From a virus: a DNA stretch of 34,286 bases. The position numbers and the translations under genes were made by a program. The notes beneath the pieces were generated by a model. The model did not search any database. It was not told where the DNA came from and worked only from the letters and a program-made list of their open reading frames with translations. The stretch is from IMG/VR virus record IMGVR_UViG_3300032770_000068, positions 1-34,286 of that record; one strand, given 5' to 3'. Every line of letters begins with the position of its first letter. Within the stretch, counting starts at the first letter, position 1. Below, one piece after another: positions 19,011 to 34,215 of the stretch.

Positions 19011-19189
19011 GATCCTCCTTCGTGGGGATAGGGAGCGGCCCGCCCGGGATGACGTCCCGGGCAGCTCGCGACTCGGCCGTGATGGGCCCCGTGCCGCTCC
19101 CCCGATAACCACCCGCTCGCCGGAGCTACCGGCTGAAGAGGTGGGGTCGGCCGGGCCCCGCGGGAGCTACCCGCTGACAACCGGCCTCG
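19011..19189 (-). ncRNA. Highly structured leader/noncoding RNA region
   Basis: This 179-nt gap between a tRNA-like gene and the next leftward gene is full of pairings: outer stem GGGAGCGGC/GCCGCTCCC (19031-19039 with 19093-19101) enclosing GCCCGGGA/TCCCGGGC (19042-19049 with 19055-19062), and two hairpins with the same AGCTA loop, GCCGG/CCGGC (19119-19133) and GCGGG/CCCGC (19160-19174). It is probably transcribed leftward. Its role is unknown. Confidence 0.45.
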
Positions 19190-19260
19190 TGCACCTGTCG
19201 GGAATCGAACCCGCGTCCTCCGCTGGAATTGCGACGGCTCTACCACTGAGCTATAGGCGC
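19190..19260 (-). tRNA. tRNA-like gene, isotype unresolved
   Basis: A 71-nt cloverleaf on the leftward strand: D-arm GCTC/GAGC with AGTGGTA loop, and T-arm with TTCGATT loop. The acceptor GCGCCTA/CAGGTGC has a 7-66 mismatch and one G-U; the T-stem has a 49-65 mismatch. The anticodon arm GTCGC/GCGGA has loop AATTCCA, lacking U33; by position the triplet would be UUC, but Gly UCC by shifting is also conceivable. No encoded CCA. Confidence 0.65.
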
Positions 19261-25766: not shown

Positions 25767-26255
25767 TCACCCTGTGTAGGTCAGGCGCAGTGACGTGATC
25801 CGGTGATACGCGTAGAGCCCGGACGCGATGCCGATCTCTCGCAGATCGGGCCAGAGAGTGTCCCCCAGGTGGAAATCGTTGCTGGACGCAAGACCGCCCG
25901 AGTAGTTGCAATTGACCCAGTCGAATACGTCGACGTGCCAGCCGGACCCCCACCCGCTGTCGTTGACGACGAAGCTCGCGCTGTTGTCGGTCACGGCGGT
26001 GCCGTTGGGCCAGTACGCCATGGGGGCCGTCAAGTTGATGCACGAGTTCGGCGCGTAGTACAGGTTCGTCAGGGTGGATTTCCAGCCGGGGTTGGCATCG
26101 CCGGAGGGGGCTCCGTAGTCGAGCCACTGGTACAGGCACACGTACCCGTCCGGGCAACCGTGCACGGACGACGCGTAGGACGGGGTGGCGCCAAGGGTCA
26201 GGGACAGGCCCAGCGCGGCCAGCAGCGCGGCCAGCGCGCGGAAAGGAAGCTTCAT
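25767..26255 (-). CDS. Secreted peptidase-inhibitor I36-like protein
   Basis: A 162-aa protein with an N-terminal Sec signal (MKLPFRALAALLAALGLSL..., cleavage probably after PSYA). The mature part starts HGCPDGYVCLYQW and has NSASFVVNDSGW, the signature of peptidase inhibitor family I36 (Streptomyces SMPI type, crystallin-like fold), which inhibits metalloproteases. It has its own promoter and terminator, typical of a moron. TAAAGT lies 7 nt before the ATG with no ribosome binding site, suggesting leaderless mRNA. The upstream in-frame ATG (26303) lies in the promoter. Confidence 0.82.
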   Translation of the reverse strand: MKLPFRALAALLAALGLSLTLGATPSYASSVHGCPDGYVCLYQWLDYGAPSGDANPGWKSTLTNLYYAPNSCINLTAPMAYWPNGTAVTDNSASFVVNDSGWGSGWHVDVFDWVNCNYSGGLASSNDFHLGDTLWPDLREIGIASGLYAYHRITSLRLTYTG

Positions 26256-26258
26256 GGG

Positions 26259-26287
26259 TTGCACTTTAGCATGCATGACTGTAGGGT
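26259..26287 (+). promoter_or_regulatory. Divergent early promoter with shared dyad region
   Basis: Rightward TTGCAC, 17-nt spacer, TAGGGT; the spacer ends GCATGCATGACTG. The leftward -10 of the inhibitor gene (TAAAGT, 26268-26263) overlaps it, so a regulator bound here would affect both directions. Confidence 0.75.
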
Positions 26288-26326
26288 GGTGGACGTACCG
26301 CACCGGCGCCCACGAAGGAGCAAGAA

Positions 26327-26572
26327 ATGCGCATCATGGATCGCCTCATGCAGACCAGCATCGACGTCGACCGGATCATGCTGCTACCGATCGGGGACAT
26401 CCTGATCGACATCGACGCAGGGCACATCGTCGTGGGATTCGAGCCTACCGACGACGGCCCGGACGTCGAGTGGTGGACCGCGACGCGCTACGACGACGAG
26501 GGCACTGAGTCGTTGATCTACGAGGGGACCGACGTGGCTGCCCTGATCCGCCGCCTGCTCGCGGCCCGCTAG
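26327..26572 (+). CDS. Small hypothetical early protein
   Basis: An 81-aa acidic protein (ILIDIDAGHIVVGFEPTDDGPD, then YEGTDVAALIRRLLAAR) of unknown function, with an alpha/beta look. It has the CCCACGAAGGAG leader before its ATG and is the first rightward gene after the divergent promoter. Confidence 0.75.
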   Translation: MRIMDRLMQTSIDVDRIMLLPIGDILIDIDAGHIVVGFEPTDDGPDVEWWTATRYDDEGTESLIYEGTDVAALIRRLLAAR

Positions 26573-26580
26573 CCGCACCG

Positions 26581-27200
26581 GAAACCTGATCCCGCGAAGG
26601 AGTCCCATGGAAACCAGAGTGATCAATTCCAGCGTCGCCGTTGAGCTGGGGGGAGAGGACAGGCCCCTCTTCAACTCCGGCATGCACCCGCGAGCCGTCC
26701 GGGCGGAGATGGTGGAGGTGTTCTACGAGCCTGACGCGTGGGTCATCGTCTTTGGGCTTGAGGTCAAGGAAGATGGCACGCCGGACACGATCCGAGGCAG
26801 GCGGAGCTGGTCGAGGTGGACCGAGGAGCCCTGTCCTGACTGGCTGGAGCAGTTGATCGAGCAGTACCGGCCGCAAGATCTCGAAGCGTGAAAACCTGAC
26901 CCCGCGAAGGAGTCCCATGAAAACCAGAGTGATCAATTCCAGCGTCGCCGTTGAGCTGAAGGGAGAGGACAGGCCCCTCTTCAACTCCGGCACGCACCCG
27001 CGAGCCGTCCAGGCGGAGATGGTGGAGGTGTTCTACGGGTCCACCGCCTGGGTCGTCGTCTCCGGGCCTGAGATCAAGAAAGATGGCACGCCGGACACGA
27101 TCCGAGGCAGGCGGAGCTGGTCGAGGTGGACCGAGGAGCCCTGTCCTGACTGGCTGGAGCGGTTGATCGAGCAGTACCGGCCGCAAGATCTCGAAGCGTG
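26581..27200 (+). repeat. Tandem 310-bp duplication
   Basis: Two head-to-tail units (26581-26890, 26891-27200), each holding a ribosome binding site and a 94-aa gene, in exact 310-bp register. The start of a third unit (AAAACCTG) is seen at 27201, where it forms the beginning of the next small gene. The high identity suggests a recent event. Confidence 0.92.
26607..26891 (+). CDS. Duplicated hypothetical protein, copy 1
   Basis: A 94-aa protein (METRVINSSVAVELGGEDRP...) with a beta-rich N-terminal half and the conserved C-terminal block DTIRGRRSWSRWTEEPC. It is nearly identical to the next gene at both ends; most differences lie at residues 41-58. No domain was recognised. GAAGGAG lies 6 nt before the ATG. 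Confidence 0.8.
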   Translation: METRVINSSVAVELGGEDRPLFNSGMHPRAVRAEMVEVFYEPDAWVIVFGLEVKEDGTPDTIRGRRSWSRWTEEPCPDWLEQLIEQYRPQDLEA

Positions 27201-27201
27201 A
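26917..27201 (+). CDS. Duplicated hypothetical protein, copy 2
   Basis: A 94-aa copy of the preceding gene. The central segment has diverged (EPDAWVIVFGLEVKED in copy 1, GSTAWVVVSGPEIKKD here) while the last 36 residues differ by one. The pattern of variation in one exposed segment suggests relaxed or diversifying selection on it. Its stop overlaps the next start as GTGA. Confidence 0.8.
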   Translation: MKTRVINSSVAVELKGEDRPLFNSGTHPRAVQAEMVEVFYGSTAWVVVSGPEIKKDGTPDTIRGRRSWSRWTEEPCPDWLERLIEQYRPQDLEA

Positions 27202-27305
27202 AAACCTGGAAGATGAGGCGCCTGCTGACCAGTGTGCTGGTCCTGCTGACCGCGTACAACGCATCCCTGATCGGGATGCACCTGCACCTGCTCGTCCGGT
27301 ACTAG
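27198..27305 (+). CDS. Tiny single-pass membrane protein
   Basis: A 35-aa protein (MKTWKMRRLLTSVLVLLTAY then NASLIGMHLHLLVRY) with basic N-terminus and one hydrophobic helix. GTG at 27198 overlaps the previous stop (GTGA); ATG at 27213 is an alternative. It could be a membrane-acting peptide or toxin-like product; unknown. Confidence 0.55.
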   Translation: MKTWKMRRLLTSVLVLLTAYNASLIGMHLHLLVRY

Positions 27306-27420: not shown

Positions 27421-29481
27421 ATGACGCAGTTGTTCGAGCCCGAGCCGCTGGAGACAGATGATGCCGATCCGATTCTGGACGCGGCACTGCGGTACGCCGC
27501 GCAAGGCCTGGCGGTTTTTCCGGTACGGCTCGGAGTGCGCGGGGACGGCAAAAAGGACGTCAGCCCGATCGCGGCCTGGCGCTCGGCCAGCACCGCCGAC
27601 CCCGCCACGATCATCGGCTGGTTCACCGGTCCGTGGCAGGGGTGCGCGCTGGCTGCGGATACTGGCAAATCGGGCGTGGTGGTGATCGACCAGGACGTCT
27701 CCGACGGTAAACGCGGACCGCAGGAGTGGGACGCGATCGGGCAGAAGAGCGAGCTGAGGGTGAACACCCCCTCAGGCGGTCGTCACGACTGGTTCCGGGC
27801 CGACGACGCGCACCCGGTCACCGTGGACAACTCCGGCGCGGTGGCTGACGGGGTGGACGTGCGCGGCCAGGGGGGATTCGTCTTCCTGCCGCCCAGTGCC
27901 GACCCGAGGGGCGGGGCGTGGACATGGGAGTCGGAGCCGGAGGACCTCACCGAGCTGCCCGCGGTCCCGCCGGTCGTGATCGAGCGGATGGCCGCCAGGC
28001 AGGCCGGTCGGCGCGAAGCGCCCCTGATCAAAAACGGTCAGGATGATGGGCAGCTTTTCGAGCGTGGCGGCGGTCCGAAGACGCGGCGGGCCGCGTTCAC
28101 GATGCTCGGGCAGGAGCTGCATGAGCTGGCGGGCCTCATCGAGCAGGGCAGCTCGCGCAGTCACCTGGTCGCCACTCGAATCGCCCCGATGGCGGGACAC
28201 GGGATCGATGTCTTCTGGTCCTACGACTACGCTCACGACGCGATCATGGCCGTATGCAGGGCAAACGGATTCGTAGCCGCGCACGGCGAACGATACGTCA
28301 GTCAGCAGATCAGCCGGGGGCTGGATTTCGGCTCTGAGCAGCCCTGGACAGAGGTGCCCGAGACGGCACCCGGCCAGAGCCCCGCGCCCGGTCAGCGCGG
28401 CAAGAGCCTGAAAGATCAACTCGTCACGCTGGCCGACCTGAGGGCGATGCCCGCACCTGAACACCTGATCAAGGGCATCTTGACCAAGCATTCTGGGACG
28501 TGGCTGATCGCCGCGCCCGGCGGTTTCAAAAGTTTCCTGGCGCTGGACTGGGCCGCGCACATCGCGACCGGCCGCCCGTGGATGGGCAGGAAAACCCGCC
28601 AGGAAGACGTGCTGTACGTGGTGGGTGAGGGTGTGCACGGCATCGGCAAGCGGCTGACGGCGTGGGCGTTCGCGCACGGCCAGAGCACGCACAGGCTGAG
28701 AGTGCTGCCGGTGGCCGTGCAGGCACGCGGCTACGGCGGGGCGGGGCTGTCCGAACAGTGGGGCGAGCTGGTCGAGCTGGTACGGGAGATGCGGCCCGGC
28801 CTGATCGTGCTGGACACGCAGGCCCGGATGACCGTGGGACTGAACGAGAACGACGCCAGGGACACGGGGATATTCCTCGACGGGGTAGAGCGGCTGAAGC
28901 AAGCCTCGGGGGCCTGCGTGCTGGTTGTGCATCACACGGGCCGCAACGGGAATGACGCGCGGGGGTCGTCCGCCATCGACGGCGCACAGGATGCCGAATG
29001 GAAGTTGACCAGGCCGGACAAGGGGCTGAGGGCCACGCTCACGTGCGAGAAGAGCAAGGACACCGACGACACGGCCAGGATCGACTTGGTGCTGCGCGTA
29101 GTGCCTGTGGGCGTCGATGAGGACGGCCAGCAAGTCACCTCGCTGGTGGTGGGGGATTCGAACGCGTTTGTGCAGGTCCAGGTTCGCGATGCCGTGTCCC
29201 CGGGGGAGCGTGGCGCGGCAATCCTGCTGGCCGAGGGGGAGACCGACGAGGCTCGCAGGCTGGTCCTGATGATGCTGGCCGAGCATGACCCGAGGGGTAA
29301 CGGCCTGAGCCGGGCGGAGATACAGGCCCTCGGTAATGAGGCCCTGAAGGCGGGCAACGGCAATCGGACAAAATATGACAGATCGGTGTACACGCGAGCC
29401 CTGAACAGGCTGTGCGAGGACGGGAAGGTGACCTCCGACGACCGCCCCACTCCCCGCTACAGAATGTCTGATTTAACCTAG
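27421..29481 (+). CDS. Primase-polymerase/RepA-type helicase replication protein
   Basis: A 686-aa replication protein. Residues ~15-195 are a bifunctional prim-pol domain: GLAVFPV, PIAAWRSAS, the acidic VVVIDQD (Asp90, Asp92), TPSGGRHDWFR and GVDVRGQGGFVFLPPS. Residues ~335-590 are a RecA-fold RepA-like ATPase with Walker A APGGFKSF (365-372) and Walker B LIVLDT (461-466). The C-terminus resembles a winged helix. It should initiate and prime replication, most likely at the adjacent repeats. Three Q-L-F motifs are near residues 3-5 and 211-213, similar to those in other early proteins. Confidence 0.9.
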   Translation: MTQLFEPEPLETDDADPILDAALRYAAQGLAVFPVRLGVRGDGKKDVSPIAAWRSASTADPATIIGWFTGPWQGCALAADTGKSGVVVIDQDVSDGKRGPQEWDAIGQKSELRVNTPSGGRHDWFRADDAHPVTVDNSGAVADGVDVRGQGGFVFLPPSADPRGGAWTWESEPEDLTELPAVPPVVIERMAARQAGRREAPLIKNGQDDGQLFERGGGPKTRRAAFTMLGQELHELAGLIEQGSSRSHLVATRIAPMAGHGIDVFWSYDYAHDAIMAVCRANGFVAAHGERYVSQQISRGLDFGSEQPWTEVPETAPGQSPAPGQRGKSLKDQLVTLADLRAMPAPEHLIKGILTKHSGTWLIAAPGGFKSFLALDWAAHIATGRPWMGRKTRQEDVLYVVGEGVHGIGKRLTAWAFAHGQSTHRLRVLPVAVQARGYGGAGLSEQWGELVELVREMRPGLIVLDTQARMTVGLNENDARDTGIFLDGVERLKQASGACVLVVHHTGRNGNDARGSSAIDGAQDAEWKLTRPDKGLRATLTCEKSKDTDDTARIDLVLRVVPVGVDEDGQQVTSLVVGDSNAFVQVQVRDAVSPGERGAAILLAEGETDEARRLVLMMLAEHDPRGNGLSRAEIQALGNEALKAGNGNRTKYDRSVYTRALNRLCEDGKVTSDDRPTPRYRMSDLT

Positions 29482-29486
29482 TATCA

Positions 29487-29708
29487 CCCTGTGCAAATGC
29501 CTGTGCAAACGATCTTGGCGTGCACAGGCTTTGCACAGGCATTTGCACAGGGTCCGTGCACAGGGTGTGCACAGGCTTGCACAGGGTCTGACCAGCACTT
29601 TGCACAGGCTTGCACAGGCTTGCACACCTAGTCACCATGCAAGGTGTGCACATCCTCTCTCTCTCTTAGGAGAGAGGGTGCTGCGCACAGGTCGGACTTT
29701 GCACAGGG
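29487..29708. repeat. Iteron-like repeat region, candidate replication origin
   Basis: Ten exact GCACAGG units (29522, 29533, 29545, 29558, 29569, 29579, 29602, 29612, 29685, 29701) plus two inverted copies (29488, 29500), mostly 10-13 bp apart. A perfect 23-bp inverted repeat pairs 29487-29509 with 29530-29552. A CT-rich hairpin (about 29655-29676) and CTAGTC/GACTAG (29718-29733) follow. No gene is supported in 29482-29793. Position right after a Rep gene fits an origin. Confidence 0.72.
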
Positions 29709-29747
29709 CGAAACCCCTAGTCGAATGACTAGAAAAGAGCGGATTCG

Positions 29748-29765
29748 CAGTCAATACTGTAGGGT
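29748..29765 (+). promoter_or_regulatory. Early -10 with dyad, weak -35
   Basis: CAGTCAATACTG followed directly by TAGGGT, as at the other early promoters, but the expected -35 position shows no TTG. It may need an activator or be an operator only. It faces the 88-aa gene. Confidence 0.6.
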
Positions 29766-29793
29766 TAGGCGAAACCCACGGAAGGACGAGATC

Positions 29794-30060
29794 ATGATCA
29801 GGTTCGAGCGCACCTTGAGCGATGCGGAGATCTCCGCACTCATCGACGGCGTCACCGGCCACCCCCTGGCCGTACGGGGCGCACTGGCCGAGGCCGGGCT
29901 GATCGGGCCGGGTGGCGAGCCGACCCGACTGGGTCAGGTGGTGCGGATGAGGGAATTCGATGCCCTCCTCGACCGTGAGTTCGGCCCCGTGCGCCCGCTG
30001 AGAGCCGCGCTGAGCGCTCAAAAGGCCTCGGTGGTAGTCGGGGGCAGGGTTCGGGCATGA
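29794..30060 (+). CDS. Small hypothetical protein
   Basis: An 88-aa protein, helical, with FERTLSDAEISALIDGV and LGQVVRMREFDALLDREFG. ATG at 29794 has GAAGGA upstream and the CCCACGGAAGGA leader; the upstream in-frame region belongs to the repeats. No recognised domain; it is coupled by ATGA to the resolvase gene. Confidence 0.72.
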   Translation: MIRFERTLSDAEISALIDGVTGHPLAVRGALAEAGLIGPGGEPTRLGQVVRMREFDALLDREFGPVRPLRAALSAQKASVVVGGRVRA

Positions 30061-30584
30061 GTGGCCTTACGGACGCTCTGAGCGGTTCTCCGGGGATGCC
30101 CGGCCTCCTGCTGACCGTGCCGGGCACTCCAGGCCCGAAAGGCTCCGTCAAGGCGTGGTGCACACGCTGCGCAAAGAGGCGGTTTCCACAGCGCGTGGTG
30201 GTCACCGAGGAGTCGCAGAACGGCGTGCAGGCCCGGGAGCGTTACGCCCGAGCTGCGAAATTCGCCTGGTCCGGTCGCCCGCGGATGACGGGCCCGCTGG
30301 CCGTGTGGATGTGGGTCAGCATCGAGCGCCGGATGCAGATCAAAAACGGTCAGCCGACCGGTCAGCCCGTCCCCAGTCACGCCGGTCCGTATCCCACGCA
30401 TCGCAACTCGGGGGACATCGAGAAACACGCCCGCACCTTGCACGACGCGCTACAGGACGCGGGCGTGATTGCGGATGACGCACAGGTGGTTCACCTGCAC
30501 GTTTACAAATGCTGGGCGGACGATGTGGACATTCCTGGCATAACGTTCGAAGTCCGCGAGATCGGAGATACGCATGAAGACTGA
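30057..30584 (+). CDS. rusA-like: RusA-like Holliday junction resolvase
   Basis: A 175-aa endonuclease of the RusA family. The conserved block SGDIEKHARTLHDALQDAGV then IADDAQVVHLHVYKCW supplies the catalytic acidic residues (Asp in GDIEK, Asp-Asp in ADDAQ) and Lys. PGTPGPKGSVKAWC is the family's N-terminal strand. It resolves branched intermediates before packaging. Overlaps both neighbours. Confidence 0.85.
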   Translation: MSGLTDALSGSPGMPGLLLTVPGTPGPKGSVKAWCTRCAKRRFPQRVVVTEESQNGVQARERYARAAKFAWSGRPRMTGPLAVWMWVSIERRMQIKNGQPTGQPVPSHAGPYPTHRNSGDIEKHARTLHDALQDAGVIADDAQVVHLHVYKCWADDVDIPGITFEVREIGDTHED

Positions 30585-30811: not shown

Positions 30812-30888
30812 ATCCCGACGGTTCTACCCTCCAAAGTCCTCCAAAACTCCAGCTAGATGGCGGTTTTGGAGGGCAGGGCCGTCGGGAT
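30812..30888 (+). terminator. Large hairpin after HTH gene
   Basis: Outer arms ATCCCGACGG/CCGTCGGGAT (30812-30821 with 30879-30888) and inner arms CCTCCAAAAC/GTTTTGGAGG (30838-30847 with 30863-30872). It may terminate the replication operon or be a protein-binding cruciform. Confidence 0.6.
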
Positions 30889-30965
30889 TGAAACGTTACA
30901 GTCGTGATGCTGTGACAAACCCCACAGTCATGGGGTTGCGGGGATGGCAGTCATGACTGTAGAGT
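30889..30965 (+). promoter_or_regulatory. Early promoter with multiple dyad sites
   Basis: Rightward TTGCGG (30936-30941), 18-nt spacer, TAGAGT (30960-30965), with perfect CAGTCATGACTG (30948-30959). Two partial copies lie upstream, CAGTCGTGATGCTG near 30899 and CAGTCATGGGG near 30925, so a regulator could bind cooperatively. Confidence 0.75.
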
Positions 30966-31005
30966 GGAGTCATCAGCAAGGACAACTCAACAGAGGGAGC
31001 CCACG

Positions 31006-31279: not shown

Positions 31280-31308
31280 TTGCCAAACCGCAGTCATGAC
31301 TGTAGAGT
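31280..31308 (+). promoter_or_regulatory. Early promoter abutting a start codon
   Basis: TTGCCA, 17-nt spacer ending in perfect CAGTCATGACTG (31291-31302), TAGAGT, then six bases and ATG at 31315. Transcription would begin at or near the A of the ATG. Confidence 0.8.
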
Positions 31309-31314
31309 GGAGTC

Positions 31315-31476
31315 ATGACATACAGCGCAGAGGTTTCCTGGGAGACCAGCAAGCAGGCCGGGCGGTTCACTCGGACCGGCCAGACCGAGAAGCAGATCGA
31401 GGAGATCAAGCGGGATCTGCGCGAGCACGCTCCGCAGGGCAGCACGCACGTCGTCAAGGTCACGCGCGAGAACTGA
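31315..31476 (+). CDS. Small hypothetical protein, probably leaderless mRNA
   Basis: A 53-aa protein (MTYSAEVSWETSKQAGRFTR, ends THVVKVTREN) with beta-alpha-beta character. Only GGAG is present between the -10 and ATG, and would be upstream of the likely transcript start. It heads the rightward operon 31315-32966. Unknown function. Confidence 0.68.
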   Translation: MTYSAEVSWETSKQAGRFTRTGQTEKQIEEIKRDLREHAPQGSTHVVKVTREN

Positions 31477-33350: not shown

Positions 33351-33526
33351 GAGCGCGGCCCCCGAGCCGGACCGTCCTTGTACAGGTCGACCGTCTTCGT
33401 GCCGCTCATTTCGTTGTCCTGCTCGATCTGCTTGATGATGTTCTTGCAGCTACTGCAGTTGCAGCCGATGAAGCTGCCGAGCACGTTGCGCTGCATTCCC
33501 TGGTGGCGGTCCATCTCGTTCGTCAT
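33347..33526 (-). CDS. Small Cys-containing hypothetical protein
   Basis: A 59-aa protein (MTNEMDRHQGMQRNVLGSFI, GCNCSSCKN, ends DGPARGPRS). CxCxxC may bind metal. It is read leftward from a start codon 6 nt after its -10. Its stop overlaps the HNH stop as CTAG. Confidence 0.7.
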   Translation of the reverse strand: MTNEMDRHQGMQRNVLGSFIGCNCSSCKNIIKQIEQDNEMSGTKTVDLYKDGPARGPRS

Positions 33527-33565
33527 GCCTCCACTATACAGTCATCACTGCTCAGATGCAATAGC
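33518..33565 (-). repeat. 48-bp promoter repeat, copy 1, with early promoter
   Basis: Leftward TTGCAT (33561-33556), 17-nt spacer with CAGTGATGACTG, TATAGT (33538-33533), GGAGGC, ATG. The 48 bp including the first codons match 34025-34072 with one mismatch, in the -10. The -35 half also encodes the end of the upstream 162-aa protein. Confidence 0.85.
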
Positions 33566-34033
33566 CTCTGACGCCGAGGTGAACTCGACCACGTCATCGC
33601 CGAGGGCGGCGAGCTGCCAGATGATGTCCATTCGCGTGCGCGAGTCGGCGGCGTGGCGGTACTGCTCGCGCAGGGCGGCGATCCTGCGCGCGTCCTCCTC
33701 GGTGTCGTCCTCGGCGATGACGTGGTCGCCCTCAGTGTCGTCCTCGGTGTCCTCGGAGAGGTTTACGCGGTTGTATACGTCGTCCCCCAGTAGTGCGAGT
33801 CGCCAGATGATGTCCCCCCGCATGCTGGGCTCGGCGTTGCGGTACTCCTTGCGCAGGATCGCCACGGTGCGCTCCGTGTCCTCGGCGATGGCCTGCTCGT
33901 GATCGGTGCCGATGGCTGCGTGGTACGCGGCGGCAATCCGCTCGATCTCCGCGTCGGTCACGTCGTTCAGGAAGAGGTTGTACTTCGTGAGCCACGCGTT
34001 GATCTGACGCTTGCCCTGCTCTGTGTTCGTCAT
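33545..34033 (-). CDS. Acidic protein with internal duplication
   Basis: A 162-aa acidic protein. Two copies of a ~45-residue unit are visible: AILRKEYRNAEPSMRGDIIW-RLALLGDDV and AALREQYRHAADSRTRMDII-WQLAALGDDV, each preceded by IAED(D)TE, joined by an Asp/Glu-rich linker. Each unit looks helical. Function unknown; strong acidity suggests DNA mimicry or protein binding. Start codon 6 nt after the -10. Confidence 0.78.
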   Translation of the reverse strand: MTNTEQGKRQINAWLTKYNLFLNDVTDAEIERIAAAYHAAIGTDHEQAIAEDTERTVAILRKEYRNAEPSMRGDIIWRLALLGDDVYNRVNLSEDTEDDTEGDHVIAEDDTEEDARRIAALREQYRHAADSRTRMDIIWQLAALGDDVVEFTSASEAIASEQ

Positions 34034-34072
34034 GCCTCCACTCTACAGTCATCACTGCTCAGATGCAATAGC
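34025..34072 (-). repeat. 48-bp promoter repeat, copy 2, with early promoter
   Basis: Leftward TTGCAT (34068-34063), 17-nt spacer with CAGTGATGACTG, TAGAGT (34045-34040), GGAGGC, ATG. One mismatch from copy 1. Confidence 0.85.
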
Positions 34073-34215
34073 TCGTGAGCTGGGAAAACGCAGAGATCGA
34101 GGGGATCGGCCGGGCGGGACAGGGGTGGGGGAGGAGCGGCCGAGTGAGTTGAAACGTTACAGTAGTGATTGCGAGAATGGCCCCTCGCTGAGGGGCCATT
34201 CTGCTTTTCGGGCGT
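34073..34215. terminator. Intergenic region with strong bidirectional hairpin
   Basis: AATGGCCCCTC/GAGGGGCCATT (34176-34186 with 34190-34200) is an 11-bp stem, loop GCT, followed rightward by CTGCTTTT. Upstream, TTGAAACGTTACAGT (34149-34163) repeats a sequence at 30887-30901 near the multi-operator promoter, and may be a regulatory site. No gene seen. Confidence 0.7.

Follow-up and report, generated by a model that had tools for sequence, protein, structure and literature searches.

Initiator helicases that read their own origin are already known. The C-terminus of the SaPI Rep protein reads iterons located directly downstream of its own gene, according to PMC7581432, which cites Ubeda 2007 on this point, and Cch2 of SCCmec binds such repeats through its C-terminal domain (PMC7581432). 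A stem-loop 3' of the ORF904 gene is required for the replication of pRN1, whose origin has no iteron structure according to its authors (PMC4234260). RSF1010 has iterons together with short stem-loops for priming, and the alpha protein of phage P4 combines primase, helicase and a C-terminal winged helix in a single protein that binds short origin repeats (PMC4234260). What appears to be new here is the RepA-type protein family in this role, its gene being followed by an array specific to the lineage; our literature search, which covered open papers, returned no description of such an arrangement for RepA-type PrimPol proteins. Judging from sequence comparisons, we consider it likely that the region at 29486-29707 of the DNA analysed here is a phage replication origin, read by the protein encoded directly upstream.

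The window, meaning the whole stretch of DNA that was analysed, is a virus record of 34,286 bp that encodes terminase, portal and capsid genes. It contains 12 exact GCACAGG units at 29488-29707, ten on the plus strand and two on the minus strand (Table 1). The first-pass annotation had described twelve such units in about 220 bp, many of them 10-13 bp apart, in an array beginning 6 nt after the rep stop. All of this was borne out: the first unit lies 6 nt past the stop (29481), and the start-to-start spacings are 12, 22, 11, 12, 13, 11, 10, 23, 10, 73 and 16, with seven of the 11 intervals in the range of 10-13 bp. Several short repeats about one helical turn apart beside an initiator gene are what characterizes an iteron origin, and this arrangement is present in the window. 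GCACAGG occurs 22 times in the whole window, compared with 7.2 ± 2.6 expected, and none of 100 shuffles scored as high. Outside the array, ten dispersed copies are found in the rest of the 34 kb, with at most two in any 220 bp. No 7-mer away from the array reaches more than five copies per 250 bp; nothing else in the window approaches the array in repeat density, and no second repeat cluster was found anywhere in the 34 kb. DnaA boxes are present in many iteron origins, though not all. A scan of 29300-30000 detected no TTATCCACA or TTGTCCACA at up to one mismatch, and six of the units fit the loose pattern TTWTNCACA with one mismatch.

Table 1. Positions of the rep gene and of the repeat and hairpin features behind it, in window coordinates.
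Feature	Position	Strand	Basis
rep gene, 686 aa: PrimPol (aa 22-181), RepA-type helicase AAA_25 (aa 339-510), predicted C-terminal winged helix (~aa 594-682)	27421..29481	+	
Coding stretch of the C-terminal winged helix, proposed repeat reader	29200..29481	+	AlphaFold, structure matches, motif covariation
Perfect inverted repeat, arms of 24 bp (29486-29509/29530-29553), 20-nt loop	29486..29553	.	100% complementary
Iteron array core, ten exact GCACAGG units (two -, then eight +)	29488..29618		
Starts of the GCACAGG units	29488, 29500, 29522, 29533, 29545, 29558, 29569, 29579, 29602, 29612, 29685, 29701		
Degenerate units TTGCACAC (~29619) and GTGTGCACA (~29644), ahead of the hairpin	29619..29653	+	sequence; repeat families D1, D4
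Pyrimidine-armed hairpin CCTCTCTC-TCTCTTAG-GAGAGAGG, candidate ssi-like primer-initiation site	29654..29677	+	
Final two exact GCACAGG units, 3' of the hairpin	29685..29707	+	exact-match count

An inverted repeat had also been reported, described as perfect, 23 bp long and containing four units. It is indeed perfect and its arms hold four units, two in each, with a further unit in the loop; the arms measure 24 bp. It starts 4 nt past the rep stop and is the longest among the 65 array loci described below. With arms of this length and a loop of 20 nt, the window has a large stem-loop 3' of the rep gene, as pRN1 does. As a single strand, 29482-29793 folds far better than shuffled sequences (z = -7.85). 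The second hairpin, at 29654-29677 within the array, had been overlooked.

The Rep protein matches Pfam families PF09250 (Prim-Pol, E 3e-22) and PF13481 (AAA_25, E 9e-37), and its C-terminus has no Pfam match above the cut-off. The profile of the Rep family matches RepA of RSF1010 (1g8y, E 8e-11) and found no other solved structure. For the C-terminus (aa 580-686), AlphaFold predicted a winged helix of the order H-H-H-E-E with a pLDDT of 86. This predicted domain matched winged helices with a VIA Z of up to 11.8, including that of an MCM subunit in replisomes. The structure-search matches listed contained no replication initiators like those of P4 or pRN1, which is uninformative since winged helices are too common. 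A full-length AlphaFold model from nine sequences was poor (pLDDT 69, pTM 0.42) and was left unused.

Other features were observed in the window. At 26582-27208, a stretch of about 310 bp is duplicated in tandem at 94% identity, giving two copies of a gene for a 94-aa protein (26607-26891 and 26917-27201), the first of which has no family match. A 178-aa protein with a signal-peptide-like start is encoded on the minus strand at 25767-26303 and has no Pfam match at 0.01. Both tRNA genes are on the minus strand: tRNA-Glu (ttc) at 19189-19260 was also found by Rfam, and tRNA-Pro (cgg) at 26424-26498 by ARAGORN only. A dispersed element, GCAGTCATGACTGTAGAGTGG(AGTCAT), lies at 26269-26295, 29747-29773, 30947-30973 and 31290-31316 on the plus strand and at ~33518-33565 and ~34025-34072 on the minus strand; the copy at 29747-29773, between the array and the next gene, has diverged. 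Its core has five matches in the window compared with 0.34 expected, and the copies are possibly phage promoters or operators. The sequences at 30877-30908 and 34138-34169 share TTGAAACGTTACAGT.GTGAT and are also promoter-like.

Because the motif is lineage-specific, blastn of the array against phages and plasmids gave no match, and protein similarity was therefore the sole criterion for gathering relatives from viral contigs and genome contigs. A first search of the genome contigs with the single protein as query had also found nothing. Enough flanking sequence was available for 138 loci, 130 of which were non-redundant at 90% identity. An array was defined as at least six copies of one 7-mer between -100 and +400 of the rep stop. 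Such arrays were found at the 3' end of rep in 73 of the 138 relatives, but upstream in 0/124 and at +900 to +1400 in 2/124. When repeats were compared with dinucleotide shuffles (p ≤ 0.01), 88/138 loci were significant at the rep stop versus 1/124 upstream and 3/124 downstream (+900 to +1400). Among the non-redundant loci, 65/130 had both an array and a significant motif. When loci were clustered at 50% identity, 40 of the 84 clusters contained arrays. The genomes that carry these array loci include Actinomycetota, Pseudomonadota and Planctomycetota, among others.

The layout of the 65 array loci resembles that of the window. The first copy lies at a median of 9 nt and the last at a median of 187 nt after the stop, with about eight exact copies, spacings mostly of 9-13 bp and both unit orientations in 61 of the loci. 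Perfect inverted repeats with arms of at least 14 bp were found in 16/65 array loci, compared with 2/59 upstream, 1/59 far from the gene and 0/65 within it. The spelling of the repeat differs, and nearly every lineage has its own motif of 7-9 bp; the first relatives found, L002 and L001, have 3'-end arrays of TGCTACGCC and CAACGGT rather than GCACAGG. By the first-pass annotation, an origin would be refuted if the repeats were not conserved in phages sharing this Rep. Conservation does not extend to their spelling; what about half of the relatives retain is an array as such, together with its place and its layout.

Arrays were found in Rhizobium phages 16-3 (gene p101, unit GCGTGACAA) and RHph_X2_25, Roseobacter phage CRP-831 and Idiomarinaceae phage 1N2-2, and in the plasmid records pKp_Goe_795-4 and p1RM9154-C1. 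Arrays were also found with 8 of 24 RepA proteins whose length, 300-450 aa, leaves no room for a fused PrimPol. We considered the small Klebsiella element pKp_Goe_795-4 as a possible natural mini-replicon and rejected it: an integrase and phage genes are present on it as well, and the circularity of its record is therefore no evidence. A scan of the collection for paired TTGCACAGG units was likewise abandoned, as the inspected loci were mostly coding-sequence repeats (e.g. L020, L031, L032, L042) or unrelated regions; these loci were kept out of the statistics.

About half of the relatives fail the array test. Phages phi674, Rich, Knocker, Emiris and NTR1 have no array and encode a DNA polymerase beside rep. 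Baka, GB2A, NBR1, Agatha, BillDoor and Vibrio phage 1269 also have no array, and the listed genes of the stretch retrieved for them include no polymerase; Shagrat has a split arrangement. An array behind the RepA-type gene is common, not universal.

We compared the motifs of the 65 loci with the different parts of the protein. Motif similarity was correlated with similarity of the C-terminus when the helicase was held constant (partial Mantel r=0.17, p=0.0005); with the C-terminus held constant, its correlation with the helicase was r=0.04 (p=0.15). The former remained when the downstream DNA was also controlled (r=0.135, p=0.001). A few dozen pairs of close relatives account for this covariation, which thus reflects the minority of pairs with any similarity at all. 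The motif was shared in none of the 14 pairs with a similar helicase and a different C-terminus. Loci L166 and L174, for instance, with a helicase similarity of 0.94, differ over the second half of the C-terminal domain, and their motifs are unrelated; L167, L174 and L176 have a common C-terminus and a common motif. Conversely, the motif is identical in L082 and L083 at similarities of 0.42 for the helicase and 0.82 for the C-terminus. In the pair L121/L125, identity is 96% over the 350 bp that precede the C-terminal region and 91% from +400 to +800; between these stretches it falls to 73% in the C-terminus and 78% in the array region. Considering that the C-terminal coding region adjoins the array, co-inheritance could add to the covariation. 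Clustering of the genes next to the array gave 59 groups for the 65 loci, which leaves no shared neighbour that could account for it. These comparisons are indirect evidence that the GCACAGG array is probably read by the C-terminal winged helix of Rep.

Hairpins with a pyrimidine 5' arm and a TA-containing loop were found downstream of rep in 33/129 loci, compared with 1/118 upstream, 2/120 far away and 3/130 within the gene. The opposite-strand form occurred in 2/129, showing that the hairpin is strand-specific. In array loci, 22 of 26 hairpins have repeat units on both flanks. Similar hairpins, CCCCCCCTCTAAAGAGGGGGGG and CCACCCCCTTTAGGGGGTGG, are found behind the RepA-type genes of Kosakonia phage Kc166B (L236) and Polaromonas pPNAP03 (L231), which have no array; the hairpin may therefore be an independent element.

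With the array recurring in about half of the relatives collected by protein, and its motif tracking the C-terminal winged helix, an iteron-type origin beside the initiator, as originally suggested, is the best-supported reading. We propose that the winged helix of the 686-aa Rep would bind the GCACAGG units, mostly one or two helical turns apart, and that through this binding the RepA-type hexameric helicase would be loaded at the array or next to it. Opening of the origin may be assisted by the inverted repeat. The PrimPol domain would then place the first primer on exposed single-stranded DNA. A possible site is the pyrimidine-armed hairpin, which by analogy with RSF1010 could be an ssi-like priming site. 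Since none of the scanned window ORFs was identified as a DNA polymerase, a host polymerase would extend the primer. Counting against an origin, no marked AT-rich unwinding region is apparent near the array; in the relatives, the GC content of the array region is about 7 points under the locus mean, and the lowest nearby 50-bp window is at 0.44. The suggested check by GC skew gave no clear support, with a cumulative minimum at ~25-26 kb, where the confounding change in gene orientation also lies.

The lack of a marked AT-rich region, together with the position downstream of rep, would also fit a control site, bound by Rep or by a different phage protein and regulating copy number or the expression of rep (incA-like, by handcuffing), with the origin elsewhere, for example inside rep. 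P1-type plasmids offer a precedent, having control iterons separate from the origin. Control iterons, however, normally copy the origin's own iterons, and the 34 kb hold no second repeat cluster, nor was a dense array found upstream of rep in any of 124 relatives; we regard this explanation as unlikely. Short repeats near a replication gene may alternatively serve a partition system as its centromere (parS-like): in mycobacteriophage RedRock, each parS locus repeats an 8-bp motif eight times in direct orientation, and an additional parS lies immediately behind repA in Miko and Rachaly (PMC7157519). We consider this very improbable for the window, where no ParA or ParB family was found among the ORFs scanned. 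The array is also found beside the RepA-type gene in loci whose neighbouring genes are unrelated, and its motif varies with the C-terminus of Rep. RedRock-type parS with mycobacterial RepA, and Francisella phage KIRK, were set aside as different systems.

The inverted part had also been suggested to act as a terminator. More broadly, the hairpins could be transcription terminators and the repeats coincidental or operators for the next gene, as might be expected of a strand-specific hairpin between rep and the next gene and of a promoter-like element with a diverged copy at 29747-29773. We found no intrinsic terminator at 29300-30100, though, and a T-tract followed none of the 33 hairpins in relatives, leaving the terminator proposal unsupported. 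The units flanking most array-locus hairpins on both sides and the unrelated next genes between loci also argue against this explanation, which we find highly doubtful.

If the array is an origin read by Rep, it may belong to a widespread and undescribed class of one-protein cassettes, in which PrimPol/RepA-type helicases have their own origin behind the gene and lineages swap winged helix and repeat spelling jointly. Origin specificity would then diversify as a linked module of reader and site, perhaps through incompatibility or superinfection competition; we see the chances of this proposal as evenly balanced. The place of the arrays gives a simple rule for locating the likely origin of many uncultured phages and phage-plasmids, namely to inspect the 3' end of the RepA-type gene. 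The loci also provide numerous natural combinations of a domain that reads DNA with the repeat it recognizes, for studies of how winged helices change specificity and for compatible vectors.

Among the known systems, SaPI Rep/ori and SCCmec Cch2 share with the window repeats directly 3' of the initiator helicase gene and are the closest tested precedent for reading through the C-terminus (PMC7581432). Their helicases are of the DUF927 or D5/Primase_Cterm type, whereas that of the window is an RSF1010 RepA-type AAA_25 fused to a PrimPol (Pfam matches AAA_25 and Prim-Pol only), and the window array, unlike theirs, contains a strand-specific hairpin. ORF904 of pRN1 and Bordetella phage BIP-1 likewise unite PrimPol, helicase and C-terminal winged helix (predicted in the window) in a single protein, and a large stem-loop follows immediately 3' of the gene (PMC4234260). 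The pRN1/BIP-1 helicase belongs to SF3, in contrast to the AAA_25 relative of RSF1010 RepA in the window, where the stem-loop is built of iterons and followed by more of them, while the pRN1 origin is non-iteron. RSF1010 RepA is of the same hexameric helicase family as the window Rep (1g8y, E 8e-11), but RSF1010 uses three proteins (RepA, RepB' and RepC) where the window uses one; no RepC-type family was found among the window ORFs scanned, a subset of all ORFs. The size and layout of the RSF1010 iterons also differ from those of the window. P4 alpha resembles the window Rep in uniting primase, helicase and C-terminal winged helix, but its primase is TOPRIM and that of the window Prim-Pol PF09250, and the arrangement of P4 ori and crr differs from that of the window.
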